DNA from: Thermoplasma acidophilum DSM 1728
GTDB lineage: Archaea; Thermoplasmatota; Thermoplasmata; Thermoplasmatales; Thermoplasmataceae
Direction of reading: 5' to 3'
Assembly: GCF_000195915.1 (NCBI RefSeq)
Contig: NC_002578.1
Location: 248,001 to 312,000, forward strand
Length of the DNA: 64,000 nucleotides
The notes under the pieces are model-generated. The model did not search any database and was not told the DNA's origin. It saw only the letters and a program-made list of their open reading frames with translations. The translations under genes were made by a program, and so were the position numbers. This document shows, in pieces, positions 21,487-42,870 of this stretch. The stretch's first letter is position 1; every line of letters begins with the position of its first letter.

Positions 21487-23733
21487 ATGAATAAGACAGC
21501 TTTAGTTGCGATTATAGTGGTAGTCGTTGTCGTAGCTGGAGTTGGTGGATATCTGGGATACCAGTATACACATCCGGTCAAGACTAACCTGCCAAAAATG
21601 TACATAACGGCACTGTCCCCGTTGAACGCACTGGCGACATTCGAACTGGACGAGCTTGTGAGCAATTATAAGGCACTTGGTCTTCCAATAAGTATATCGC
21701 TGGTCTCGCCGACAGTAGAAGGTGAATGGCTATCGCCAACATCAACACCGCAGTTTGTTGATCTTGGATGGCTGCCAGACTGGCCTGATCCTGTGGCACA
21801 GCAGATGTGGCCAATGGCTACGTACTCTAACGGTGGCGCATATGGAGCGAACATGGCCTGGGTTAACAACACGACTCTGAACTCAGCATTCCCAGCTATA
21901 GTTTTCAACAGCAACAAGACACAGCAGATGCAGGAATTCGTGCAGCTCTACAAGGTATTCTATGACCAGTATTCTTACATATGGCTTCCTAACCCGGACA
22001 CATACTTCTTCGTGCAGCCATACATAACGAATTTCACTTACAACGCGTATGAGAATCACTATTACAACATGATGAACTACAATTCAACGCTTGCCCACGA
22101 TTACGGAATGACTCTTCCATCCAATGGATCAGGTGGATACGCTTTAAACGATGCGGCCGTAGGTGACTCACTTGCTCCTCCTGACTATCTCGACCCATCG
22201 CATGGATTCTTTGTACAGGATGGTCCAATGTTCACCGCAGCCTTCCAGCAGCTCTATGAACTCAACGGTACGAACTATGAACCGGTTGTGCCCGTCATAG
22301 CGCAGACTCCAGCAAAGGATGCGACCAACACAAGCAATCCGAACGTAGCCTACAGGATATACAACATAACCCTAAGAAGCGGTGTATACTTCGATGCTCC
22401 GTCATTTGGAGTTTATGGTAGTGCAACAAACTACTCAACAGTGGTCAACGCCACAACGGTATGGTTCTCGCTGTACCGTACACTCGTGATGGCCCAGGGT
22501 GTCTCCGTTGACAACTACGCTGGAATGCTGTTCAACGCATCAGCATATGCAGCAACCGCTCCATACTCGCTTCCATGGGGCTGGATGCATGCAATGCGTG
22601 CAGTTGCCAACAACACATCACTTAACTCGGGCATAAGCTTCCCGTATCCGAATGTATATTCGAACCTCAACGTTTCCAACACAGTATACGCTGCGGACTA
22701 CCTGGCGAACATGCTCTCCCACTTCGATCCTTGGAGCAACGCTACTCAGGCAGCTTTGATATCTTACCCGAACCAGGCCCTGTACGTGCCCAACTACAAC
22801 AAGACTGTAGCGATGTATGGTTCTAACAGCGCAGCACTGAATGCGCATTCATTGAACGTTACGATACAGCTCCTGAAGCCTTACCCGTTCTTCCTACAGG
22901 ATATGGCAGAGTGGTGGGGTAACATAGCCGATCCGGCATTCATAGACACTCATGATGGCGTCCTTGCAACAGCGCCTAACAACTACACCGATGCTAATGG
23001 AATGCCTGGCACCGGTCCATACTACATAAGCGGTGTTGGATCATCGCTGTCAACGGTAACGCTCACAATGGCGTCCAACTACTGGGGCAAGGCCTACTGG
23101 AGCATGCCAGGTCATGGTGGTCTTCCTGCAATGGCGCAGCCCGCACACATAGGCACAGTGGTGATGGACTTCACGATTGATCACTCTGGAAGGGTCAGCG
23201 GTTTCTTGGACAACACATACCAGATATCGGTGGTGAGCTCTTCATATCTAGGTTCCATAATAGGTCAGGGTGCATTCAAGAACATACCCTTGAAAGACTA
23301 CTTTATCAATTTCGGTGCGAATCCGGCAGTATTCTACATATCTATGAACAATTACCTGTATCCAACTAACAACACTTACTTCAGGATGGCCCTCTGGTAT
23401 GGTACGAACTATAGCGCATTGAATACGCCTTTCTATTACACATTCGCCAATGGAACAAAATTGTTCCTTGCTCAGAACTACATAGGTCCAATATCTCCGG
23501 GCTTCGCCAACTTCTACAATAATGCTACAAAGGGACTTCAGCCGCCTACATACAACATAACACTTGCAGAGCACTACCTCAACATAGCCGGTCAGCAGGA
23601 GCACTTCTTCGTAACGCTACCAAACGGTACGAAGCTAGGTGATGTGTCGTCGTCCAGTACGACCGCACAGATAGTCCTGACCGTTGGCAACCTACTGGAC
23701 AATATGCTCATGGCGCCGGTAAGAATATTCTAA
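21487..23733 (+). CDS. Peptide-type ABC substrate-binding protein with circularly permuted family 5 fold
   Basis: A 748-residue exported protein anchored by one N-terminal hydrophobic segment (about 4-25), with many N-x-S/T sequons. It belongs to the DppA/OppA binding-protein family, but the parts are out of order. Residues about 38-195 look like the normal C-terminal part (GLPISISLVSPTVEGEW, DLGWLPDWPDP near 93-102, YIWLPNPDTYFF). Residues about 225-725 look like the normal N-terminal start (APPDYLDPSHGFFVQDG, VVPVIAQ, YNITLRSGVYF) and end in AEHYLNIAGQQ, which in DppA precedes the segment found here at the N-terminus. It heads a complete transporter operon region. The ATG at 21487 is used; TTG at 21484 is also in frame. 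Confidence 0.88.
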   Translation: MNKTALVAIIVVVVVVAGVGGYLGYQYTHPVKTNLPKMYITALSPLNALATFELDELVSNYKALGLPISISLVSPTVEGEWLSPTSTPQFVDLGWLPDWPDPVAQQMWPMATYSNGGAYGANMAWVNNTTLNSAFPAIVFNSNKTQQMQEFVQLYKVFYDQYSYIWLPNPDTYFFVQPYITNFTYNAYENHYYNMMNYNSTLAHDYGMTLPSNGSGGYALNDAAVGDSLAPPDYLDPSHGFFVQDGPMFTAAFQQLYELNGTNYEPVVPVIAQTPAKDATNTSNPNVAYRIYNITLRSGVYFDAPSFGVYGSATNYSTVVNATTVWFSLYRTLVMAQGVSVDNYAGMLFNASAYAATAPYSLPWGWMHAMRAVANNTSLNSGISFPYPNVYSNLNVSNTVYAADYLANMLSHFDPWSNATQAALISYPNQALYVPNYNKTVAMYGSNSAALNAHSLNVTIQLLKPYPFFLQDMAEWWGNIADPAFIDTHDGVLATAPNNYTDANGMPGTGPYYISGVGSSLSTVTLTMASNYWGKAYWSMPGHGGLPAMAQPAHIGTVVMDFTIDHSGRVSGFLDNTYQISVVSSSYLGSIIGQGAFKNIPLKDYFINFGANPAVFYISMNNYLYPTNNTYFRMALWYGTNYSALNTPFYYTFANGTKLFLAQNYIGPISPGFANFYNNATKGLQPPTYNITLAEHYLNIAGQQEHFFVTLPNGTKLGDVSSSSTTAQIVLTVGNLLDNMLMAPVRIF

Positions 23734-24306: not shown

Positions 24307-25338
24307 ATGGATAGCAGAACACTTGCATTCATAATAAGAAGGGCAATATATGCAATTTTCACGCTTCTGATTCTTATTGTGTTCATATTCACACTTATAC
24401 ATATTATAGCTCCTAATCCACTGGCTTTAGCGAGACTGTATGCGGGCAATCCTCATGCATCGCAGTCTGAGCTCATCGGTATCGAGAAAAAATATGGTCT
24501 GAATCTGCCTATATATGATCAGGTGATAAATTACATTAAGGACGTGTTCATTGGGAATCTTGGATATGATTACCTTCACGATCAGCCAGTTTTAAAATTG
24601 ATAGGCGAGTATCTGCCGATCACACTCGAATTTGTCCTGACAGGCATAGTGTTATCCGTCATAATAGGCCTCTTTACAGGAGCATATGCAGCAGCCAGAA
24701 GAAGAAAACCTGCAGATTACACGATCAAGGGTCTCTACCTTGCCACATGGTCGATGCCCACATTCTTACTTGCCGCTGTTCTGCAGCTTTACATAGCCTA
24801 TGATTTGAAGCTTCTTCCAGCTACTGGCATGGTTAACCCTACTCTGAAACCTCCCCCAAATGTATTGGCATTTCCGCTTCTAAACGCCATATACGCCCAT
24901 GACTGGGTTTACGCCTCAAGTGTTATACATCATATGATACTCCCAACCCTTTCTGTTGCTTTGCTATCCTTCGGTGTTATCACAAGGTTAACCAGATCCA
25001 CCATGCTTGATATAATGGATATGGATTATTTCCGTTTGACCATCATGAAAGGAATACCCCGGAGAAAAGCGGTATACGGGGTGGCTTTGAGAAATGCTGC
25101 GATTCCCTTGGTAACTTATATAGTGCTTGCATTTGCTTACGCTATGGGTGGAGCTGTGGTGATAGAGGATATATTTTCTTACCACGGTATGGGTTATTAT
25201 ATTGTTCAGGCAGTTTACAACCTGGACTATCCTGGCATACTGGGGACTACGATAATAATAGCGATCGCTGTAATTGTAGCTAATCTTGTGGCTGATGTAT
25301 TGTACGGAATACTGGATCCAAGGGTGAGGCTGGAATGA
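24307..25338 (+). CDS. Peptide-type ABC transporter permease, DppB-like
   Basis: A 343-residue membrane protein. An N-terminal segment (RRAIYAIFTLLILIVFIFTL) is followed by the external loop typical of DppB, with the conserved LGLNLPIYDQ-type text (here KKYGLNLPIYDQV). The permease core carries an EAA-like cytoplasmic loop (TRSTMLDIMDMDYFRLTIMKG-IPRRKAVYGVALRNAAIPLVT) that docks to the ATPase. It forms the translocation channel with the next gene, which it overlaps by ATGA. Substrate is probably oligopeptides, an inference from family and from the scavenging lifestyle of Thermoplasma. Confidence 0.92.
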   Translation: MDSRTLAFIIRRAIYAIFTLLILIVFIFTLIHIIAPNPLALARLYAGNPHASQSELIGIEKKYGLNLPIYDQVINYIKDVFIGNLGYDYLHDQPVLKLIGEYLPITLEFVLTGIVLSVIIGLFTGAYAAARRRKPADYTIKGLYLATWSMPTFLLAAVLQLYIAYDLKLLPATGMVNPTLKPPPNVLAFPLLNAIYAHDWVYASSVIHHMILPTLSVALLSFGVITRLTRSTMLDIMDMDYFRLTIMKGIPRRKAVYGVALRNAAIPLVTYIVLAFAYAMGGAVVIEDIFSYHGMGYYIVQAVYNLDYPGILGTTIIIAIAVIVANLVADVLYGILDPRVRLE

Positions 25339-26264
25339 CAGAAAGTAATGTTGTAACTAACGTTGTAGAGAAAAAACCAAAGACGCAGAACAGGACGATC
25401 GCTTATCTCAAGATAATGATAAAGGATCCTTCTGCCGTCCTTGGTCTCGTTATAGTTGTAGCGTTTTTGGGATGGTCAATCATACAGGGTTTACTTGAAG
25501 TCTTTTTCGGTATATCCGGTCCTGCAATAGCGTTGCTACCACATGACCCTTTTAAATACAATTTGGTTGTGGGTCTTCACCCCCCGGATCGCACATATCT
25601 ATTGGGGACAAATGCAAATGGTGAGGATATACTATCAAGGATGCTATACGCGATGCCTAGGGATGCCTATATTTCGATTATTGTAGTATTGTCGGGTGTT
25701 CTTCTTGGCGGACTGTTCGGAATCATCGCGGGGTATAGGGGCGGCTACCTCGATGAAGTTATAATGAGGATAACAGATGCGTTCTTGTCGTTGCCCGCAC
25801 TTATACTGGTGATTGCGTTATCAGTCCTGTTTCATGAAACGCTTGGCGGCGTAATACTTGCACTTGTAATTGTGTGGTGGCCTATATACGCAAGGTTCTT
25901 CAGAGCGCAAACGCTGAGAATCAAGAATCTGGACTTCGTGCAGGCTGCGAAGTTAGGAAATGTTTCATTCGCAAAACTATTCTTCAGCTATCTTTTCATA
26001 AATTCAATAGATCCGGTTGTTGCCTATGCGGCTCTAGATTTCGGAAACGTCATACTCACATATTCAACATTAGCCTTTCTGGGTATAGGATTAGAGCCAC
26101 CAATACCGGAACTTGGATCAATGGCATCTAACGGTGTGGGTACTCTGCCCACAGGATGGTGGTATGCAGTATTTCCGGGCCTGGCAATACTTATAATAGT
26201 GATAGGCTTCGTGCTCGTAGGAGACAGAATGCAGGATATCGTTTCAAACAGGATAAACTACTAG
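25335..26264 (+). CDS. Peptide-type ABC transporter permease, DppC-like
   Basis: A 309-residue permease of ordinary length. The first membrane segment is near 33-55. It is followed by the DppC hallmark YLLGTNANGEDILSRMLYAM (compare LGTDxxGRDVLSR), the channel core, and an EAA-like loop (YARFFRAQTLRIKNLDFVQA-AKLGNVSFAKLFF). This pairs with the upstream DppB-like subunit. The gene overlaps it by 4 bp and is followed after 10 bp by the first ATPase. It is useful as a normal-sized comparison for the enlarged DppC-like protein at 29688. Confidence 0.92.
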   Translation: MTESNVVTNVVEKKPKTQNRTIAYLKIMIKDPSAVLGLVIVVAFLGWSIIQGLLEVFFGISGPAIALLPHDPFKYNLVVGLHPPDRTYLLGTNANGEDILSRMLYAMPRDAYISIIVVLSGVLLGGLFGIIAGYRGGYLDEVIMRITDAFLSLPALILVIALSVLFHETLGGVILALVIVWWPIYARFFRAQTLRIKNLDFVQAAKLGNVSFAKLFFSYLFINSIDPVVAYAALDFGNVILTYSTLAFLGIGLEPPIPELGSMASNGVGTLPTGWWYAVFPGLAILIIVIGFVLVGDRMQDIVSNRINY

Positions 26265-26274
26265 GTGCATTTCG

Positions 26275-27240
26275 ATGTTGTTAAGCATTAAGCATCTGAA
26301 CGTATGGTACAATACAGTAGCTGGCAAGTACAAGGTCATCGACGATCTAAATCTTGACATAGATCAGGGGGAGCTTGTCTCGCTGGTCGGCGAATCTGCT
26401 TCTGGAAAATCTACGCTTGGGCAGGTCATATCCAGAATGCTTCCGCCTGTTGGAATCACATCCGGCGAAGTTGTGCTGGACGGTGTAGATGTTCTGAAGC
26501 TCTCAGAGAAGGAGATGACCAAGATCAGGGGAACGACCGTATTCATGATTTTTCAGAACCCACTTAACAGCCTGAATCCGGTGAAGAGGATTGAGGAGCA
26601 GCTCATGGAGGCCCTTGCCATCAGGAACAGCAGAATGAATATACAGATGACTTTCGAAGAGGCAAGGAAAGAGGTAATTAAAGCCCTGGAGAGCCTAAGA
26701 TTGCCGGACCCTGAGAAAATTCTGATAAGGTATCCCCATGAGCTTTCTGGTGGGCAGGTACAGAGGGTAGTTATATGCATGGCGCTTCTTCTAAGACCAA
26801 AATTATTGATTGCAGATGAACCTACCACTGCACTTGATGTCACAATTCAGGCGCAGGTAGTGAAACTGTTGAAGGATCTCAACAGAGATACAAAGATGAC
26901 AATCATCTTCATCACGCACGATGTTGGCCTTGCCTACGTTTTATCCGATCGCATGCTCGTTTTTTATGCAGGAAGGGTTATGGAGCAGGGGCAGACCGTT
27001 GAAATCGTTAAAAATCCCCTGCACCCGTACACATCCGGATTGCTTGCAAGCATTCCATCTTCACCAAAGCATTCAGGGAAGCTGTATTCCATACCGGGGT
27101 ATCCACCTTCATATCTGTCGTTGCCAAAGGGCTGCAAATTTGCCCCGAGATGCAGGTTTGCATTCGAAAGGTGTTTTGAGGAGGAACCCAGTTACATAAA
27201 GAAGGATAACAGATTGATAAGGTGTTGGCTGTATGAGTGA
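26275..27240 (+). CDS. Peptide-type ABC transporter ATPase, DppD-like
   Basis: A 321-residue ATPase. Visible are Walker A GESASGKST, the Q-loop (FMIFQNPLNSLNPV), the ABC signature LSGGQVQR, Walker B LLIADEPTTALD and the switch histidine in FITHDVGL. The C-terminal tail has the cysteine-containing oligopeptide/dipeptide domain (GCKFAPRCRFAFERC), which in bacterial DppD binds an iron-sulfur cluster. It works as a heterodimer with the next ATPase, whose start it overlaps by 8 bp. Confidence 0.94.
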   Translation: MLLSIKHLNVWYNTVAGKYKVIDDLNLDIDQGELVSLVGESASGKSTLGQVISRMLPPVGITSGEVVLDGVDVLKLSEKEMTKIRGTTVFMIFQNPLNSLNPVKRIEEQLMEALAIRNSRMNIQMTFEEARKEVIKALESLRLPDPEKILIRYPHELSGGQVQRVVICMALLLRPKLLIADEPTTALDVTIQAQVVKLLKDLNRDTKMTIIFITHDVGLAYVLSDRMLVFYAGRVMEQGQTVEIVKNPLHPYTSGLLASIPSSPKHSGKLYSIPGYPPSYLSLPKGCKFAPRCRFAFERCFEEEPSYIKKDNRLIRCWLYE

Positions 27241-28177
27241 GATATACTCTCTTAAAAATGTAAAGAAATATTATCTGGCCCAGAAACGTGGTCTGATAGA
27301 CGCTCTTGTTAAGGTTCCGAAAATATATGTCAGGGCGCTAGACGATGTGAGCATATCAATAATGGATGGGAACGTCATAGGTGTTGTTGGGGAAAGCGGT
27401 TCCGGTAAGTCGACCATGGGCAAGGTTATGGTAACCTTGGAGACTCCGACAGATGGCGAACTCTACTTCAAGGGCACTAGGGTCACTAAGTCAGAGTACC
27501 CAAAGATAAGGAAGCAGGTGGATATGGTATTCCAGAACCCTGCCACATCATTGAACCCTAAAATGAAGGTGAAGGACATAGTTTCTGAACCTCTTGGGCA
27601 CTTTGACGAAGGCGCCATAAAGGAGGTCATTCTGAAGGTAGGTCTTTCATACGACGAGGTCAAGGACAAGCAATCCAGGGAACTTTCGGGAGGGCAGGTT
27701 CAGAGGGTTGCGATCGCACGTGCGTTGATGAAGAAGCCGGAACTGCTAGTTCTCGATGAACCAACATCAGCTCTGGATGAATCAATACAGGCACAGGTCT
27801 TGAACCTTCTCGTCGACCTGCAGACAGAGTATAAGATGACATATATATTTATAACTCATAATATACTGGTAGCAAAATACATATCAGACTATATAGTGGT
27901 ATTATACGCTGGCAAAATAGTGGAGTATGGGCCGACTTCAGAGGTCCTTTCCAAGCCTTTGCATCCCTATACTCAATTGCTTCTAAGTTCCGTTCCGACG
28001 GTTGATGTTAAGGATGTGAAACCGCCTGTCGGCGATGTGCCGAGCCTGATAAATCTTCCACAGGGCTGCCGTTTTAACCCCAGATGCCCATTTGTTATGG
28101 AAAAATGCAGGAAAGAAGAACCACCTCTGATAAGTCAGGGGCAGAATTATCAGGTGGCATGCTGGCTGTATGAATAA
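27233..28177 (+). CDS. Peptide-type ABC transporter ATPase, DppF-like
   Basis: A 314-residue ATPase with Walker A GESGSGKST, Q-loop MVFQNPATSLNPKMKV, signature LSGGQVQR, Walker B LLVLDEPTSALD, and an ITHNILVAKY switch region in which the usual His-Asp is His-Asn. The C-terminal domain includes GCRFNPRCPFVMEKC. The DPF-like lead (KKYYLAQKRGLIDALVKVPK) is typical of the DppF half. It overlaps both neighbours, by 8 bp on each side, so the system 1 genes from 24307 to 28571 are almost certainly one transcript. Confidence 0.94.
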   Translation: MSEIYSLKNVKKYYLAQKRGLIDALVKVPKIYVRALDDVSISIMDGNVIGVVGESGSGKSTMGKVMVTLETPTDGELYFKGTRVTKSEYPKIRKQVDMVFQNPATSLNPKMKVKDIVSEPLGHFDEGAIKEVILKVGLSYDEVKDKQSRELSGGQVQRVAIARALMKKPELLVLDEPTSALDESIQAQVLNLLVDLQTEYKMTYIFITHNILVAKYISDYIVVLYAGKIVEYGPTSEVLSKPLHPYTQLLLSSVPTVDVKDVKPPVGDVPSLINLPQGCRFNPRCPFVMEKCRKEEPPLISQGQNYQVACWLYE

Positions 28178-28707: not shown

Positions 28708-29685
28708 ATGAACATATACGTAATAACCAGAAAAATAATACAAGATGTCGTTCTGATTATATTTGTCGTGGTGATACTTTACGTGGTATTCAGGATTATG
28801 CCAGGGAGTCCCGTAGACCTTTTCCTGCACGGTTTAAAGCATCCTACAGAACAGGAAAAAATTACAATTGAAAAACAACTTGGCCTATACGGTGGGAAAT
28901 TTAGCTTGACAAATTTTCTCATCTATCTTAGAGATATGTTTACATTTAACTTTGGCGAAGACTATTATACGGGTCAAAGCGTAATTTTTGTCATTAAGCA
29001 GGCATTGCCTTATACTCTTCTGCTTTTTGGTTCAGCTGCAGTCATTTCTTTTGCAATAGGGATCCCGTTAGGAATATACACATCGTTTAAGAGGGGTAAA
29101 AAATCTGAGAGCGGCATTATAACTGCAAGTACGCTTCTCAATTCTATACCATTCTTTGTTTTTGCTATTATTTTCTTTGTTTATCTTGCGGGGGATCTTC
29201 ACATATTTCCGTTGAGATCAATATTCCCTATTTCGTATATTGTACATCCAACTTTGAAGAGTATCGAGTTGATTCTTTATTATCTCGCTATGCCTATCAT
29301 AGTCCTGGTTATAGTAGAAGCTGCAGGGCATCTGTTAACCATGCGTGCTGCCATGGTATCAGTTCTTGGTGAAGATTTTATAACAACAGCGCGTGCGAAA
29401 GGAGTAAGTGAACGGGGTATAATGTTTCATCATGCGGCTAGAAACGCCATGATACCTGTTTCCACTAGAATGGCCCTTGAATTCGCTTTCTTAATGAGTG
29501 GGGCTGTGATAGTCGAAGTAATATTCTCAATACACGGAATGGGTACTGTTCTTTATGATGCAACACTTCAAGAAGATTATCCTGTAAGTGAAGGGGCTCT
29601 CTTTGTGATTTCAATCATAGTTATATTGGCTTATTCTGCCATAGACTTTATTCATGCTTGGTTAGATCCAAGAATCAAGGTGTAG
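28708..29685 (+). CDS. Second peptide-type ABC permease, DppB-like
   Basis: A 325-residue DppB-type permease, first of a second transporter. It has an N-terminal membrane segment (VVLIIFVVVILYVVFRIMPG, containing the RIMPGSPVD motif), EKQLGLYGG in the external loop, the channel core and an EAA-like loop (EDFITTARAKGVSERGIMFH-HAARNAMIPV). Codon use is more A/T-rich than in the flanking metabolic genes. The ATG at 28708 is chosen over TTG 28690. The next gene starts 2 bp after its stop. Confidence 0.92.
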   Translation: MNIYVITRKIIQDVVLIIFVVVILYVVFRIMPGSPVDLFLHGLKHPTEQEKITIEKQLGLYGGKFSLTNFLIYLRDMFTFNFGEDYYTGQSVIFVIKQALPYTLLLFGSAAVISFAIGIPLGIYTSFKRGKKSESGIITASTLLNSIPFFVFAIIFFVYLAGDLHIFPLRSIFPISYIVHPTLKSIELILYYLAMPIIVLVIVEAAGHLLTMRAAMVSVLGEDFITTARAKGVSERGIMFHHAARNAMIPVSTRMALEFAFLMSGAVIVEVIFSIHGMGTVLYDATLQEDYPVSEGALFVISIIVILAYSAIDFIHAWLDPRIKV

Positions 29686-29687
29686 AA

Positions 29688-31808
29688 ATGAAGAGCAATT
29701 ATAATTTTAGAAAGGAAAGAATTAGATTCACGATATCTAATCTTAAAAAGGACTGGAAGATTTTCTACTCATCAGCCTATGGGAAGGTGGGCTTCATATT
29801 AGTTATGATATTTGTTATAATATCCCTAATAAGCCCATTAATTATTATTCACAACAATCCAAATAATTATATTGTCCCGCAGGAGGATTTCTATACTGCT
29901 GGTCTTGAAAAGAGCCTGAACATTGGTGCCAGCAATTTTTATGGGCCTTTTTCATCAACATCGAATCCAGACGGTAGTTATCTTCTTTACTTCAACAATA
30001 AAACTAACATAGTGAGTATAGGAGAAAATGGTGCCATTTATCATTTACTAAATTCAACAGGTTTGATGCCATTGAAAGTCTATTCAATAGGTAATTATAA
30101 TGAATACCTTATAAGCGGTACTCTTCAACTTAACACGTATCTCATTGATTCAAATGAAACAACAGTTTTTATAGGCAAAGTTGTCTGGCCAAGTGGAACT
30201 CCAGGAAGTGGGAACCCTTCCGTTAGTTGGTCAGATATTAATGCGAGCAATGTGATCGATTTTATTTCCAGTGCGTATTCCTATTCTACATATCAGAGCG
30301 GAATTCCTGAATTCAACGATGAAACTTACAGACCAGCTTACCTGATCATTGAGAACGGATCTACGACTTCTGGTTTTTATCTGACATCTTATTATCTTTC
30401 ATCTATGAAACAGGTTTTTTCAATTAAATTGCCTCATAGTGTTGGCCCAGATTCGCTTCATTTTTACGGTTCGCTTTTTGACACAGCAGATATTCCAAAT
30501 CAACTCATTTTGGTTAATTATTCAAACAATTTATTGGCTTATTCAATGACTGGCAAACTCAAATGGGATCTATCATTGCCCGCAAATATAACTCAAATTT
30601 ATATTCCATTCGCTTATCAGTCAATTTCAAAACCATATAACATGATATTTTCTGTTTCGGGAAATGATGTTTTTGGTATATATCCCGAAAATGGTAGCTA
30701 TGGAACCATTTATACAGGAAAGGACTCTGTATTAGCCATAGCTAGTACCCAAGGGGAAAGCGGTTTCCCCTCAGCCTTTATTGTATTGACAAAAGGTTTA
30801 TTTACGGTACTTAGCGCACCTGATAAAATATCGGAATCAGTAAGTATACCGGCGTCACTAAATAGGATAAGCTCCGATCAATTGGATTTTCTAGTTTATG
30901 ATGACAGTGGATATATGATTATGGCTGAATATTTAACAAGTAGTGAACCATTCGCATGGTTTACCAATCTCAATACCCACATATCAAAACCACAATTCTT
31001 TGTAAATCCTGAAAGTGCAAGAGAATCCATTGCAATGCTTGTTGGAAATAAGCTTAACATATATTCAGTAAATGGAAAAGACCTGAATCCATTGCCTCCA
31101 ACACTTAATGTTCCCGCTGGAGGCCCACTTCTCCTAGGCACCACTGATCATGGCAAAGATGTTTGGTCTTTATTCATAGGAAGCTTCCCAACAGATTTAT
31201 ACATAGGTGTTGTTGTTGGTATAGGGATACTGCTTATCTCAATGGTTATAGGTATGCTGATAGGCTATTTCACTGGCATCGTTAGTTCACTTGTAGAAAC
31301 TTTCTCGCTCGCCGTATACCTGATTCCAGGACTCCCACTTTTAATAGTTGTGGCCAGTATAGTGGGGCCTTCGTTAATTGGGCTGATTGCGGTGCTTACA
31401 TTCCTGAGTTGGCCTTTTCCAACATTTACCCTTATAGGTATAATACGAAGCTTGAAAAGCAGGGCTTTTGTAGAGGCCGCTAAAATTTCTGGTGCGTCTA
31501 CGATGTATATATTGAGAAAGCACATGCTTCCAAATATAACGCCTATCCTCGTATACTTAACCGCAATAAACATAGGCGGTGCTGTAGCCGCCGTTTCCAC
31601 TCTACAGATACTTGGAGTGGCTCCACTAAACGTTCCAACATGGGGCGGAATGTTATCCGGGTTTTACAGTGACTACTTTGATCTGATAATTGCACCATGG
31701 TGGTTTATTCCTCCAATAGTTGCATTAACTCTCTTTATCTTCGCATTTATATTCGTTTCAAGAGGGCTAGATGAAGTTGTCAATCCTAGATTAAGCCAGA
31801 GGAGATAA
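29688..31808 (+). CDS. DppC-like permease with a large inserted extracytoplasmic domain
   Basis: A 706-residue protein whose ends are an ordinary DppC. The first membrane segment is near 36-57, and the hallmark LLLGTTDHGKDVWSLFIGSF sits near residue 480 and is followed by the channel core with an EAA-like loop. Between them, where a normal DppC has about 60 external residues, lie roughly 400 residues rich in beta strands, Ser, Asn and Gly. Phrases such as DGSYLLYFNN, TGKLKWDLSLP and NDVFGIYPENGSYG recall PQQ/beta-propeller repeats. The insert should lie outside the membrane, where it could cap the channel or receive the binding protein. The domain name is inference. Confidence 0.88.
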   Translation: MKSNYNFRKERIRFTISNLKKDWKIFYSSAYGKVGFILVMIFVIISLISPLIIIHNNPNNYIVPQEDFYTAGLEKSLNIGASNFYGPFSSTSNPDGSYLLYFNNKTNIVSIGENGAIYHLLNSTGLMPLKVYSIGNYNEYLISGTLQLNTYLIDSNETTVFIGKVVWPSGTPGSGNPSVSWSDINASNVIDFISSAYSYSTYQSGIPEFNDETYRPAYLIIENGSTTSGFYLTSYYLSSMKQVFSIKLPHSVGPDSLHFYGSLFDTADIPNQLILVNYSNNLLAYSMTGKLKWDLSLPANITQIYIPFAYQSISKPYNMIFSVSGNDVFGIYPENGSYGTIYTGKDSVLAIASTQGESGFPSAFIVLTKGLFTVLSAPDKISESVSIPASLNRISSDQLDFLVYDDSGYMIMAEYLTSSEPFAWFTNLNTHISKPQFFVNPESARESIAMLVGNKLNIYSVNGKDLNPLPPTLNVPAGGPLLLGTTDHGKDVWSLFIGSFPTDLYIGVVVGIGILLISMVIGMLIGYFTGIVSSLVETFSLAVYLIPGLPLLIVVASIVGPSLIGLIAVLTFLSWPFPTFTLIGIIRSLKSRAFVEAAKISGASTMYILRKHMLPNITPILVYLTAINIGGAVAAVSTLQILGVAPLNVPTWGGMLSGFYSDYFDLIIAPWWFIPPIVALTLFIFAFIFVSRGLDEVVNPRLSQRR

Positions 31809-31809
31809 A

Positions 31810-33978
31810 ATGATAGAAAATGAAAGATTAGAAAAACAAAATCAGGATGAAGTTATACTTAGCGTGAGGAATGTTTCAGTTGAATTTAAAACCTATAGCG
31901 GCATAGTTCATGCACTGAGCGATGTATCGTTCGATTTGAAGCAAGGTAGATTTTTAGGTATAGTTGGTGAGTCCGGCTCAGGAAAAAGCACTCTTGCGCT
32001 ATCCATAATGTCCTTATTACCAGAAAATGCCATGATGCGAGGCTCGATCTATCTTAAGGGCACAGAATACATTTCAGACGTGATAATCAATAATGCAAAG
32101 AAGAAAAAGGCAAGAAAAATTCTTGAAGATAATCTTCGAAATATAAGATGGAAAAATATTTCTATGGTCTTCCAAGGTGCCATGAATTCTTTTAATCCCG
32201 TTTACACCATCAGAAGACAGATGTTTGAGGTTTTTAAAATACACACAACTTTGGATAATGATGAAATAGAAAAAAAGGTAGAGGAAGCTCTCAGAATGGC
32301 TGGCCTTAACATTTCGGTACTAGATATGTATCCACATGAGCTTAGCGGTGGAATGAAACAAAGAGCAGTGATTGCCATGGCGCTATCTCTGGATCCAGAT
32401 ATTGTTATAGCAGATGAGCCCACAACAGGTCTAGATGTTATAACTCAAGCTGAAATAATATCTCAACTCAAGAAATTAAAGGAGAATGGTAAAATAAAAT
32501 CGCTTATATTAATATCCCATGATTTGGGTGTCGTTTCTCAGTTAGCCGATGAAGTTATGGTTTTATACGCAGGGAAAGTGTTTGAATATGGGGAAAAATC
32601 TAGAATATTTCAAAATACGGCAAATCCATATACCTATAAACTTATAGGAAGCTATCCAAGTATAAGGAATGCCAAAAGATATGTTGAAGGCATACCTGGA
32701 TCATTGCCCGATCCCATGAAGATAGGCAAAGGATGCAAATTTGCTGATAGATGTTATATGGCTAGGGATGTATGCCGAGAAGAAGAACCGGAATTGATAA
32801 AAGTCGAAGATAATCATTATTCTGCCTGTTTTTACTGGGATTCTATAAAGAAGTCAGATAAAAGTGATGTAAAAACAGAGCCGTATCACGTGATTCAACA
32901 GAGTTCGATGGTTGAAGTAAAGGATCTTGTAAAATATTTCGAAATAAAGGAATCAATATCCAAGGCACTTTTCGAAAGGGAAAAAAGATTTGTTAGAGCT
33001 GTTGACGATATAACATTCGCAATAAGAAAGGGAGAAATTCTTGGAATTGTTGGTGAATCAGGATCAGGGAAGACAACTCTTGGCAAGACCCTTCTGGGCC
33101 TGTATTCGCCTACGGCTGGTAAGATCACCTATTCATTTTCGAATGGTGACGTTGAGATCACTCCAACTACAAGTGAATCAGAACTGATGAGATCGTCCAT
33201 CCGTAAAGAAACGCAGATGATATTTCAGGATCCATACGATTCTCTTAATCCAAAGCTTACTGTATATGATATAGTAGCAGAGCCTATAATAGCTCGAAGA
33301 TATCATAAAGGGAACAAAGAAAAAGATGATATATATAAAAATCCTTTAGAAATATTAAATCTGGTGAAAATCGCACTGGCAAAGGCGTCTCTAAAGCCTG
33401 TGGAAAATTATTTATTCAGATACCCTCATGAGCTTTCCGGAGGAGAAAGGCAAAGGGTAGCAACTGCAAGGGCATTGGTATTGAATTCAGAATTCATAAT
33501 AGCCGATGAACCCACCTCTATGCTGGATGTTTCAATCAGGGCTTCGTTTATGAATATGATGAAAGAAATAAGATCAAAAGAAGGAATAACTATGGTGTAC
33601 ATATCTCATGATATAGCTTCTACATATTATATGTCAGATAAAATATTAGTTATGTATTTAGGGAAAGCTGTAGAAATGGGATCTGCTGACGCTATAATAA
33701 ATGAACCGCTCCATCCTTATACGAAGGCGCTTATAAAGGCAATACCTACTCCATTCAGTGATTGGGATCCATCGAAAATCGATATTATTGGAGAAATAGG
33801 AAATGCAATAAATGTTCCTAAAGGATGCAGATTCTATAATAGATGCATATATAGGCAGGACATATGCAAAGATAATCCCCCAACAGTCAAAGGGGCGGAA
33901 GATCATTGGTATCTTTGCCACTTCTCGCAAGATGAACTTATGGCGATAAAAAATGGCCAAAAATCACCCAATTCTTAA
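31810..33978 (+). CDS. Double ABC ATPase (DppD-DppF fusion)
   Basis: A 722-residue protein with two complete nucleotide-binding domains. The first has Walker A GESGSGKST near 53-61, signature LSGGMKQR near 177 and Walker B IADEPTTGLD. The second has GESGSGKTT near 416, LSGGERQR near 541 and IADEPTSMLD. Both halves end with the cysteine-bearing oligopeptide domain (GCKFADRCYMARDVC and GCRFYNRCIYRQDIC). It therefore supplies both ATPase halves of system 2 in one chain, unlike the two separate genes of system 1. The ATG follows the permease stop by one base, with a GGAGAT ribosome-binding-like site before it. Confidence 0.94.
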   Translation: MIENERLEKQNQDEVILSVRNVSVEFKTYSGIVHALSDVSFDLKQGRFLGIVGESGSGKSTLALSIMSLLPENAMMRGSIYLKGTEYISDVIINNAKKKKARKILEDNLRNIRWKNISMVFQGAMNSFNPVYTIRRQMFEVFKIHTTLDNDEIEKKVEEALRMAGLNISVLDMYPHELSGGMKQRAVIAMALSLDPDIVIADEPTTGLDVITQAEIISQLKKLKENGKIKSLILISHDLGVVSQLADEVMVLYAGKVFEYGEKSRIFQNTANPYTYKLIGSYPSIRNAKRYVEGIPGSLPDPMKIGKGCKFADRCYMARDVCREEEPELIKVEDNHYSACFYWDSIKKSDKSDVKTEPYHVIQQSSMVEVKDLVKYFEIKESISKALFEREKRFVRAVDDITFAIRKGEILGIVGESGSGKTTLGKTLLGLYSPTAGKITYSFSNGDVEITPTTSESELMRSSIRKETQMIFQDPYDSLNPKLTVYDIVAEPIIARRYHKGNKEKDDIYKNPLEILNLVKIALAKASLKPVENYLFRYPHELSGGERQRVATARALVLNSEFIIADEPTSMLDVSIRASFMNMMKEIRSKEGITMVYISHDIASTYYMSDKILVMYLGKAVEMGSADAIINEPLHPYTKALIKAIPTPFSDWDPSKIDIIGEIGNAINVPKGCRFYNRCIYRQDICKDNPPTVKGAEDHWYLCHFSQDELMAIKNGQKSPNS

Positions 33979-35259: not shown

Positions 35260-38200
35260 ATGAACGATAGAAAGAGTTGGAATAAGTTCATTGTGATTGG
35301 AGTTGTATTGATTACAGCGATTTTCATCGGTACTTCCTTCGTGGCCCTATCCGAGGCGCAACAGTCAGTTTCTGGCATCGCGCAACCTCAAAATGTGCAA
35401 GCAAATGCGTATTCATCTTCAGGTACTATTTTCAGCGATCCTAACTATACCGGCGGTACTTATGTTCAAGCTACGGTCAATAATATACAGCATTTGAACA
35501 TATTCGATGCTACATCATTATATGACTTTATGTTGCTTGATGAAATATATGATTCGCTGTATAATTTCTTCCCAAATGAAACATATGGACCCTGGCTAGC
35601 TTCTTCTGCACAGGAATATAATGTGACCAATAAGAGTATTACTACCTTCGATCCATTGACTGGAACTGTCATGCCAGTTAATTTCATATATTTAGTAAAT
35701 CTCAGGCCAGGCGTTCAATGGGATGATTGGACTGCAGCTAATGCATCAGATACGTACGTTTTTACGAATTATACGGCATTCAATAACGCTACAGGAGTGC
35801 CATATTCTCATACGTATAAAAAATACTATAATGTGCTAGTCGGAAAAAATGAAACATGGACAAACATAACGATGAAAACATACTATTTACAATCTGCCGA
35901 TGTGATATTGTCTTGGAAGATATTATTTGATGCCTTAGATTACTCCGGAGAATTTCAAGACGTAGTTAATGTTGTTCCGGTTAACAATCTTACCGTGGAA
36001 TTTTATTTGAGCGCACAGAATGCTTTATTTATCTCAACGACGCTTGATACCCCAATTCTACCTTATCACATATGGATAAAACATGATTGGTCTTCCGTTC
36101 CAGGTCTCTGGAACTATACGCCTACTGCACCTGCTAGCAGTGCTTACAATTCCTGGGACATGAATTGGAATTCGGTGACAGGTTATGCGCCCGGTCTAGT
36201 TGGTACCGGTCCATATATGATGTATGCAGGTTATGGTCAGCCTCCAGGTGCGTGGATCTATGCGGACTATTGGCAACTGTATGTTAATCCCCACTATTTT
36301 GCTCAATATGTTCCGTCACTAGCGCAGTGGGCCCCAAGGCTGTATTCTATAAAGACGCTTGTTTTCACATCGAACTCAGCTGCTGTTTCAGCTCTCCAGA
36401 GTGGTGAGGTTCAGTCCATACTCGAAATACCGCCTACATTCGTCCCAACAATACAGACTATACCACATACTTATCTATATGATAAGCCCGGGACAGGGTA
36501 TGGATATCAGCAGGTCAATTCCTATCCTGGAAATGCTCCGTTTAATATAACGACACTCAGACAGGCTTTAGAATACGCCATTCCAAAGACCTATTTGGCA
36601 AGCGTCGTTGCTGAAGGTTATGCAATACCGGGTCCCTCGACAACCATACCCGTTTCGGATTCCGCATGGCAGTACACAAATATCCCTTTTTATCACTTTA
36701 ATATGAAGAAAGCTGCAGAGATGATAAATGAAACCATAAATGAAACAAGTGGGGCACTTTCGTACAGTTCTGCAGGCGGTCTCCACTATTACAGCCCAGG
36801 TGGAACGCTTTATTATAAAGGCAAAGCCGTAACGATAAGCATTCAGATAACCGTTGCTTCTGAGGATCCATTAGGTGTTGAGGGAGCAGACATAATAGCT
36901 TCGAACTGGGACGCCCTAGGAATACATACCACTGTTAAACAAGAGGCATTCGCCACACTTGTGGGCAACCTTGTAAGCTTGACTCCATCCGATCAGACAT
37001 CATTCAGTGTGATAAACTTAGGAATAACTGGGATAGCAGGGAATCCAGCGCCAGACTTTATAGCATTTAACAATCAATTGGGAATTGGAACAGGCTTTTA
37101 TCTCGGGCCGTATTCAAAAATAACATATAACGGTCCGAATATAACCAATGTTTATCCGGGATTGAAGGTCGGAACAACATACAATGGTGCCCAGATAGAT
37201 CAGATAATGAATAACCTAACGAGCATGATGTTCGTGGAAACGAATGTACATTACGAGCATGAACTTTCGGATGCTATACAGTGGATACAAGCTGAAGAAG
37301 CCACATTCCAAAATCTTGGCTATACCATATCAATAATACCGATAGATAACGGTACGTTTACTGGAATAATACATGATTCCGATCCAATAGCATCCTTCTG
37401 GTATTGGAACTTTATGACACTGCACTTAAAAACGCATGTTCCAGTTACTATTCCTATAACGGTACCAGTAAAACTAAATGTGGGCATCATTTCAAACAAA
37501 AGGATATACTATGATGGACAATTTGGGAACTTAACAATCCAGGTGAGAAACCAATATGGAAATCCGATGTCTGGAGTTCCTGTAAGTATTGGTTATTCAC
37601 CTTCTGGTGCACTAGTTAATATAACTTCTTACAGAGGCACGACAAATTCCGCTGGAATTTACACGTTTGAATTCCGCGTATTACCCCAGAATACCCTAAT
37701 ATATACTAAAGATTACATGGGAGATATAACCTTCACGGTCTCAGCCTTGCCTACCTCATCTAACGAAATATCGGGGATAGGATATGCGAACATCGATGTT
37801 TCACCGTACCCTGTAGCTTTTGAATTCACACCGCTTAAGACTCTAACAAAAGGTTCGCAGGCGTATTTCAATATGACTATTGTTAATGCTGAAACAGGGG
37901 AGCCCCTTTCTGGGTATGATTATAAGATACAGGCGTTTGACGCAGCGCTTATGCTAAAGAACACCTCGAAGAATCAAACAGTACAGCAGGTATTGAGCAA
38001 CTACGGCGGTATAGCGATAAGACTTAACAGTACAGGCTATCCGGTGTACGATATGAATATGACTTCCATTTCTGGAGTTACAGGATCTAACGGCGAAGTA
38101 TCGGTTATGGTTCAGGAGAATTCATCCTTTAACTTTACATTGAATGGCGGGAATTTCACGACGTATTTATACCTTGGTGATTATGCCGCCGGTGCACCAA

Positions 38201-40719: not shown

Positions 40720-42870
40720 ATGAAAAGGTCTATCATGGCTTTGGTAATTGCAATAGTGCTTATCATAGCAGGTATTGGTGGATTCTTTGGATATGAGTAC
40801 ACGCATCAGGTTAAGACTAACCTCAAGACGATGTATCTCACGACTTTCACAAATCCATCCAGTATCCAGACATTTCAGCTTTCTGTAATGGAACAGGATC
40901 TCAGAGCCATAGGGCTTCCAGTGAGTATACAATTGGTCTCTCCCACGGTCATAGGCAGCTATCTGACGCCAAATGGCACTCCAAATTTTGTGGGCTTTGG
41001 CTGGTTCCCCGACTGGCCTGATCCGGTGGGTCAGCAGCTAATTCCGATAACTGCATCATTTGATGGCGGTGCTATAGGTTACAACATGGCCTGGCTGGAT
41101 AATTCGACCCTCAATTCACTGTACCCGCAGATTATGTTTGAAACCAATCTAACCCAGCAGATGAAGCAGGTCGTTGAGGCCTATCACATAATATACAATC
41201 TGACGCCGTACATCTGGTTCCCGAATCCCGATACATATTTCTTTGTCCAACCTTACGTTAATAATTTCACTTACAACCCTTACGACACATATTTCTACAA
41301 CATGATGTCTTATAATTACAGCTATAACGTTAATGGAATAAAAGCCCCGACAGACGGCGTTCTCACTGACGTCGCTGCGGATGGAGCAATATCTCCACCG
41401 GATTTTCTTGATCCATCTGTTGGCTTTGATATAGAGGACGGACCGCTGTTCACAGCGGTTTATCAGCAACTGGTAGAACTCAACGGGACCAATTACCTGC
41501 AGGTGGTACCGGTAATAGCATCGAACTATTCGGTTGGCACCGGCACCCACCTATATCAGAACTACACCTTCAATATAAGGAAGAATGTAACATTCAGCAA
41601 CGGTGATCCTGTAAATGCCACCACGGTCTGGTTTTCCTTCTACAGAACAATAGTAATGGCGCAGGGTCCATCTGTGGCCAACTACGCTGATCTGCTTTTC
41701 AATTCGACCTCATACGAATATACCGCGCCATACTCGATTCCCTGGGGATTCGAGCATGCGATGCGGTACGTTTACAACACGACCGGCAAACCTAGCTGGA
41801 TGCAGTTTCCATTCCCAACAAATTATTCCAATACGAACGCATCAAATGTGAAGTTTGCTGCGGAATTTCTGGCGAACATGCTCTCGCACTTCGATCCATG
41901 GAGCAACGCCACTCAGGCGGCCTTGATATCGTATACGAATCAAGCTGTTTCAGTTCCTGGCTATAGGCCCGGCGAAGTATCGTATAAGGTTGATATGAAT
42001 ACCATATACCCGTACAGATTCTTCCTTTCTGATATAGCAGAATGGTGGGGCAACATAGCCGATCCCATATTCATAGATTCTCATGGCGGCGTAACTGCTG
42101 ACGGTACAAATGAATACATAGATGCAAGTGGTATGCCAGGAACGGGCCCATACAGTATTTCCGCAATTGGTGCATCGCTTTCCTCAATAACCTTAGTTTC
42201 AAACCCGCATTACTGGGGAAGATCATACTGGGCGAACAATGATCTTCCTGCAGTGGCGCAACCCGCACACATCCCAACGCTCATCCTCGATTACGGAATA
42301 GAACACTCCGGCCGTGTCAGCGGTTTTCTGGATAATGATTATCAGATCAGCTACGTGAGCATACCTTACATCTCTTCAATCGCTGGGGCCTCTCCTTACA
42401 GTTCGTTACCTCTAAGCTCCTTTTTCAAAAACTTTGGGGCAAATCCCGGTGTGATACCCTGGTCGATGAACACCCAGCTATATCCAACTAACATACTCGA
42501 TTTCAGAAAAGCGGTTGTTTATGCATTGAATTACTCTGAGATAGAGCACCCGTATTACTATAATAGCCAGTACCTTGCCCAGAATTATATAGGCCCTATT
42601 AGCCCTCAGTTCGCTTCATACTATGATAATGCTACTGCTGGGTTGAGTCCACAGCAGTACAACATTACGAAGGCAGAATACTACTTAAATCTCGCTGGTC
42701 AGCAGGGGAAGTTCTTCGTGACACTGCCCAATGGCACGATACTTGGGGATAAGGCGCTTGCCAAAAAGTACACCGTTCTGGAAATATCCGGCCTGAGTCA
42801 GTTCTCCCTCTTCGAAGACATGATCCTTTCAGCCGAAACGAAGCTGTCATTCATGCCATTTTTAGGCTGA
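40720..42870 (+). CDS. Orphan ABC substrate-binding protein, circularly permuted family 5 fold
   Basis: A 716-residue paralogue of the protein at 21487, with the same order of parts. It has an N-terminal anchor (about 5-25), then normally C-terminal binding-protein sequence (GLPVSIQLVSPTV, GFGWFPDWPDP near 92-102), then normally N-terminal sequence (SPPDFLDPSVGFDIEDGP, VVPVIAS, TFNIRKNVTF). It ends in AEYYLNLAGQQGKFFVTLPN plus a short tail. No permease or ATPase gene follows, so it probably shares the components of another system. ATTTTATAC at about 40690-40698 gives leaderless spacing. An IS derivative ends 110 bp upstream and may have cut it from a former operon. Confidence 0.88.
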   Translation: MKRSIMALVIAIVLIIAGIGGFFGYEYTHQVKTNLKTMYLTTFTNPSSIQTFQLSVMEQDLRAIGLPVSIQLVSPTVIGSYLTPNGTPNFVGFGWFPDWPDPVGQQLIPITASFDGGAIGYNMAWLDNSTLNSLYPQIMFETNLTQQMKQVVEAYHIIYNLTPYIWFPNPDTYFFVQPYVNNFTYNPYDTYFYNMMSYNYSYNVNGIKAPTDGVLTDVAADGAISPPDFLDPSVGFDIEDGPLFTAVYQQLVELNGTNYLQVVPVIASNYSVGTGTHLYQNYTFNIRKNVTFSNGDPVNATTVWFSFYRTIVMAQGPSVANYADLLFNSTSYEYTAPYSIPWGFEHAMRYVYNTTGKPSWMQFPFPTNYSNTNASNVKFAAEFLANMLSHFDPWSNATQAALISYTNQAVSVPGYRPGEVSYKVDMNTIYPYRFFLSDIAEWWGNIADPIFIDSHGGVTADGTNEYIDASGMPGTGPYSISAIGASLSSITLVSNPHYWGRSYWANNDLPAVAQPAHIPTLILDYGIEHSGRVSGFLDNDYQISYVSIPYISSIAGASPYSSLPLSSFFKNFGANPGVIPWSMNTQLYPTNILDFRKAVVYALNYSEIEHPYYYNSQYLAQNYIGPISPQFASYYDNATAGLSPQQYNITKAEYYLNLAGQQGKFFVTLPNGTILGDKALAKKYTVLEISGLSQFSLFEDMILSAETKLSFMPFLG

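Follow-up and report, generated by a model that had tools for sequence, protein, structure and literature searches.

Genes and chain order at the P0001 locus

The analysed window, 64,000 nucleotides of the Thermoplasma acidophilum DSM 1728 chromosome (NC_002578.1, positions 248,001 to 312,000), contains on its forward strand an intact open reading frame of 748 codons (21,487–23,733; ATG at 21,487, stop codon ending at 23,733). Its product, the substrate-binding protein P0001, has full-length homologues, and its gene is followed, in the same orientation, by dppB, dppC, dppD and dppF. These encode a DppB-type permease (24,307–25,338; PF00528 and PF19300), a DppC-type permease (25,335–26,264; PF00528), and DppD- and DppF-type ATPases (27,233–28,177 for DppF and 26,275–27,240 for DppD, each with ABC_tran and oligo_HPY), all forward and with the expected Pfam domains. 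Comparison with another Thermoplasma over 362 codons, at saturated dS, gave a dN/dS of about 0.03, indicating that P0001 is under purifying selection. The sole Thermoplasma contig obtained from the contig scan encodes a Thermoplasma sp. protein 86% identical to residues 380–748 of P0001.

Analysis of the chain revealed five parts, all on the forward strand. An N-terminal membrane anchor with a short linker (residues 1–37; 21,487–21,597) is hydrophobic at residues 6–27 and helical at 3–28 in the model. It is followed by segment B (residues 38–205; 21,598–22,101), the canonical C-terminal third with the GWLPDWPDP motif; by a linker that, from alignment A3, fuses the old C- and N-termini (residues 206–224; 22,102–22,158); and by segment A (residues 225–731; 22,159–23,679), the canonical N-terminal two thirds, running from the LDP start to the AEHYLNIAG helix and the VTLPNGTKLGD stretch. 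A new C-terminal tail (residues 732–748; 23,680–23,730) closes the protein, with a helix predicted at 733–747 in a low-confidence model. The strand–helix segment (about 38–72), GWLPDWPDP (about 94–102) and APPDYLDPSHG (about 230), with the linker between them, lie where the first-pass annotation had placed them. That annotation had let the protein end just after AEHYLNIAGQQ, which is not the case: about 45 further residues follow, first a stretch (FFVTLPNGTKLGD) homologous to canonical proteins and then the tail of about 17 residues. The cut separates the AxxLLxxAG helix from the strand that opens B, with the FFVTLPNGTKLGD extension of the helix remaining in A.

When compared with a profile derived exclusively from canonical proteins, P0001 matched positions 480–642 with B (E = 8.6e-57) and then 47–483 with A (E = 8e-112), so the reversed order of the halves is not due to chance. 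All other permuted proteins matched this profile in exchanged order as well. P0001 thus departs from the canonical family 5 order of LDP start, middle part, AxxLLxxAG and GWxxDxPDP. Both pieces are homologous to canonical proteins, their order is exchanged within one reading frame, and in alignment A3 every canonical segment is present once in the permuted proteins, none missing or doubled. The old termini are joined by the linker, which has no canonical counterpart in A3 and varies in length among the permuted rows, and the new termini lie in a loop, as judged from A3 and from the secondary structure of the model of a permuted relative, L022. Permutations usually arise through duplication, and an extra copy of B might have been added before a complete protein by partial tandem duplication. 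However, no second B follows A: there is only a tail of about 17–30 residues without significant likeness to the start of B, and the frames downstream of P0001 contain no remnant of B. The absence of a C-terminal B refutes partial tandem duplication, to which we give very little credence, and exchange of the two segments is the reading retained.

A second permuted binding protein of the same order lies further along the window (40,720–42,870, forward strand; 716 residues). It is 57% identical to and collinear with P0001, and matches the canonical profile at 476–645 and then at 32–489. Neither this copy nor the recurrence of the permutation described below had been seen in the first-pass annotation. 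The region between the two genes contains other transporter components. The 716-residue DppC-type permease encoded at 29,658–31,808 has its Pfam permease domain only at residues 529–713, its first membrane helix being separated from the remainder by about 400 apparently extracellular residues, and a 722-residue protein (31,810–33,978) fuses DppD- and DppF-type ATPases, with two ABC_tran and two oligo_HPY stretches. The 1,327-residue canonical-order binding protein at 35,260–39,243 matches an Ig-like domain weakly, carries its membrane helix at the C-terminus, and is tethered at the end opposite to that of the permuted proteins.

Homologues of both chain orders and predicted structure

A homologue search of 61 related genomes revealed proteins of the same order as P0001 in G003, G008, G009, G016 and G032 (50–67% identity), the homologues of P0001 in other genomes being 55–67% identical across the full length. 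Within the same family, other homologues contained A and then B in one reading frame, matching query residues 229–729 and then 39–208 at 35–46% identity; in the 61-genome search this canonical order was found, at about 37–45% identity, in G012, G015, G016, G028, G031, G032 and others, so that G016 and G032 carry both chain orders. When the search was extended to 77 genomes of the family, G100 joined the permuted set, bringing the same-order homologues to six other genomes, and G061, G062, G079, G080, G082 and G099 joined the canonical one. Sorting of every reading frame by the positions of A and B confirmed both classes, and the trees of A and of B agreed in placing the permuted proteins in one and the same clade, nested among canonical ones. 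One permuted copy, L082 (G009:C56:40835-42704), has a frameshift near residue 330 and is either a pseudogene or affected by an assembly error.

The Pfam profile PF00496 gave a significant match to P0001 (54 bits against a cut-off of 32.4), in one stretch only (residues 444–707, profile positions 62–282), because the B half is too diverged; the paralogue at 40,720–42,870 scored 119 bits. Of four PF00496 proteins in the genome, the two non-permuted ones matched collinearly (profile 1–361 and 3–362), and the matches of the two permuted ones stop at profile positions 282 and 292. The permuted relatives L022 and L126 each showed two PF00496 stretches, the best covering profile positions 1–286 and 2–283. 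The proposed alignment of two halves to PF00496 thus failed for P0001 itself and succeeded with closer profiles and with these relatives. Neither outcome that would have spoken against a permutation occurred: no collinear profile match was obtained, and residues 38–204, rather than forming an unrelated domain, are homologous to the canonical C-terminal third. The order-reversed profile match and the canonical homologues in the same taxonomic family support the circular permutation of a family 5 protein proposed in the first-pass annotation. Sequence comparison confirms the assignment of P0001 as a family 5 (DppA/OppA-type) substrate-binding protein with the order anchor, B, linker, A.

The AlphaFold2 model of P0001, based on 28 alignment rows, was poor (pLDDT 57, pTM 0.41), and a PDB sequence search with P0001 gave no match. 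The model of permuted L022 reached a pLDDT of 84.6 and a pTM of 0.79, with B well predicted. Foldseek, a sequential aligner, aligned it with DppA-type structures over about 370–400 of roughly 500 columns, with a TM-score to the target of about 0.5. At the sequence level, L022 residues 214–559 matched chain positions 40–372 of 6ofq and residues 56–196 matched positions 388–530, in exchanged order; the canonical protein L024 matched the same DppA-type chain in one stretch. The L022 data support a permuted chain with the usual family 5 parts, as far as the model can indicate. The structural check proposed in the first-pass annotation was borne out in part, for this relative.

Permuted proteins in other lineages of the Thermoplasmata

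Besides the relatives of P0001 (lineage I), permuted proteins were found in two further lineages. The 582-residue L022 (lineage II) belongs to G047, from another family of the order, and shares 88% identity, in A as well as in B, with a canonical relative in the same genus (G059). DNA comparison revealed that the L022 locus is orthologous to the canonical G059 gene, with the upstream flank and the anchor in place; after the orthologous anchor come B, then A, then unrelated sequence. A junction profile, in which the end of B is joined to the start of A, was applied to 400 genomes of the class and revealed a third permuted group (lineage III) in ten genomes of two further families in another order (G405, G426, G427, G423, G151, G278, G413, G263, G186 and G284), with canonical relatives that are 62–68% identical (G421, G355). 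No permuted gene was detected, at the thresholds used, in 293 genomes of the phylum outside these groups or in 195 genomes of another class of the phylum. In bacterial plasmids, the best 15 records of a non-exhaustive search matched over about 1,470 bases in two pieces, corresponding to the canonical layout.

Several relatives come from fragmented assemblies, as might be expected if the exchanged order reflected gene decay or an error of assembly or annotation. Against this, the window genome is a single contig of 1,564,906 bases, intact permuted reading frames with in-frame junctions and lineage-specific linkers are present in 18 genomes of three lineages, and the dN/dS of P0001 is low; we consider artefact or decay scarcely credible.

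On the canonical profile, lineages II and III matched in the order anchor (10–61), 431–598 and 60–431; as read from these matches, the soluble domain is permuted exactly, with the anchor kept in front. The anchor part of the profile gave significant matches in both of these lineages and in one protein only of lineage I. In all three lineages the cut falls in the loop that connects the AxxLLxxAG helix with the strand after it. Profile–profile alignment of the lineage I cut onto the lineage II/III positions was ambiguous right at the cut, so the equivalence of the cut sites is drawn from the multiple alignment.

In the concatenated tree the order label changes at least five times, with four of the changes forced by starred branches. 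AU tests, run on a group that had been selected with knowledge of the tree and that includes some long branches, rejected a single clade of all permuted proteins (p = 1.5e-102) and a single clade of lineage III (p = 0.0013; 0.0012 in the careful tree). Lineage III may therefore have undergone several gains, one gain with reversals, or gene conversion. Canonical L149, L150, L151 and L153 are nested among its permuted proteins, which may reflect reversal, repeated gains or gene conversion. Given the tree-guided choice of the group and the long branches, these comparisons argue firmly for at least three independent origins of the permutation in the Thermoplasmata, and further origins are only possible.

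One ancient permutation could mimic several origins if canonical paralogues later overwrote A and B by gene conversion. The interleaving of canonical and permuted proteins makes conversion or reversion possible within lineage III, and a short hydrophobic tail is common to permuted proteins of different lineages. However, L022 lies at the locus orthologous to that of G059, with upstream flank and anchor in place and 88% identity in A and B, both blocks would have to be replaced with their order left untouched, and the AU test rejected the one-clade constraint (p = 1.5e-102). A single origin with conversion is therefore unlikely in our judgement, and independent permutations are preferred.

Function, proposed origin and comparison with known systems

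In lineages I and III, the majority of permuted genes adjoin dppBCDF, including those of G009, G003, G100 and G008 in lineage I and of G405, G284, G151, G263 and G278 in lineage III; in G016, one permuted copy is convergent with the dppBCDF operon. This genetic association points to partnership with a DppBCDF/OppBCDF-type transporter. In another Thermoplasma (G003), a single dppBCDF operon has a permuted binding protein on either side (L090, G003:C20); the window's second permuted copy is arranged differently, about 12 kb further on and beyond another transporter. In OppA and DppA, the Asp of the GWxxD motif holds the amino end of the peptide. This Asp is kept in 21 of the 22 permuted sequences, L036 having Ser instead, and its retention suggests peptide binding. 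A working peptide-binding protein is the best-supported reading of P0001, with a peptide as the probable ligand.

Permutation might instead have altered function, turning a transport protein into, for instance, a sensor or a scaffold at the membrane, since some permuted copies (the paralogue at 40,720, G016b, G032 and L022) have no permease genes beside them. The adjoining dppBCDF genes and the nearly invariant Asp argue against such a change, which we regard as improbable. We hold it very probable that P0001 is a tethered, circularly permuted binding protein of a Dpp/Opp-type peptide importer that folds normally, binds peptides and belongs to a group that arose by repeated duplication and loss.

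P0001 would be expected to fold as a normal two-lobe clam shell, with the original termini close together and bridged by the Ser/Gly/Asn linker. Tethered by its N-terminal transmembrane helix, it would bind peptides and deliver them to DppBC, and the anchor would now sit on the lobe of the cut site instead of the lobe with the original N-terminus. Tandem duplication with loss of the outer copies is the standard route to permutation, and here it would have removed the outer A and B copies, probably several times independently in this archaeal class. This route fits the L022 locus, which has retained its 5′ end in place but has a new 3′ flank. More tentatively, with slightly less than even confidence, we propose that at least three independent permutations at one loop in the Thermoplasmata, with possible reversals in one lineage, were favoured by the anchor moving between lobes.

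The tail was also considered as a duplication fossil, a decayed start of B, which was unsupported in any lineage (shuffle p 0.075–0.96). In four of eight permuted proteins, all of lineage I, it weakly resembles canonical C-terminal tails (p 0.002–0.05), a likeness that would imply retention of both ends and exchange of the interior. In lineage III, L126, L130, L134, L135, L140 and L141 share a similar short terminal helix (like VLxELxARIxF), which is absent from their canonical relatives.

Compared with DppA and OppA (family 5, cluster C; PF00496), P0001 is homologous over all of A and B and shares the DppBCDF association and the motif Asp; the order, however, is A–B in those proteins and B–A in P0001, with new termini after the AxxLLxxAG helix and the old termini fused by the linker. 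The canonical Thermoplasmata relatives L037 (G099), L047 (G059) and L149 (G421) are 35–88% identical in A and B and have the same type of anchor, but contain A and then B in one reading frame. In the open-access literature we found no report of a permuted family 5 binding protein, although one may have gone unnoticed, and none of repeated permutation at the same site. Pfam and sequence annotation recognize only half of each permuted protein, so further cases have probably been overlooked. Natural circular permutations are usually regarded as single, ancient events that separate distantly related proteins. In the present case, the protein sequences of canonical and permuted genes at an orthologous locus differ by as little as 12%, and separate lineages show the same cut, so the mechanism and the selective value of permutation become directly testable. 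For the engineering of peptide biosensors from family 5 proteins, the shared cut site is also a position already validated by nature.

A natural precedent is TpMglB-2 (Tp0684) of Treponema pallidum, a circularly permuted type I substrate-binding protein ('type Ic / cluster Bc') in which the permuted piece comprises about the first 70–100 residues (PMC4990184). Like P0001, it is a natural permutant of an ABC importer, is membrane-tethered and is conserved across many species (PMC4990184). It has the type I (cluster B) sugar-binding fold (PMC4990184), which is not homologous to family 5; by its PF00496 homology, P0001 belongs to a different cluster. Its authors suggest tethering as the reason for permutation (PMC4990184), a proposal that can be tested with the proteins described here. 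TpMglB-2 and its relatives were presented there as one topological class, not as repeated origins (PMC4990184).
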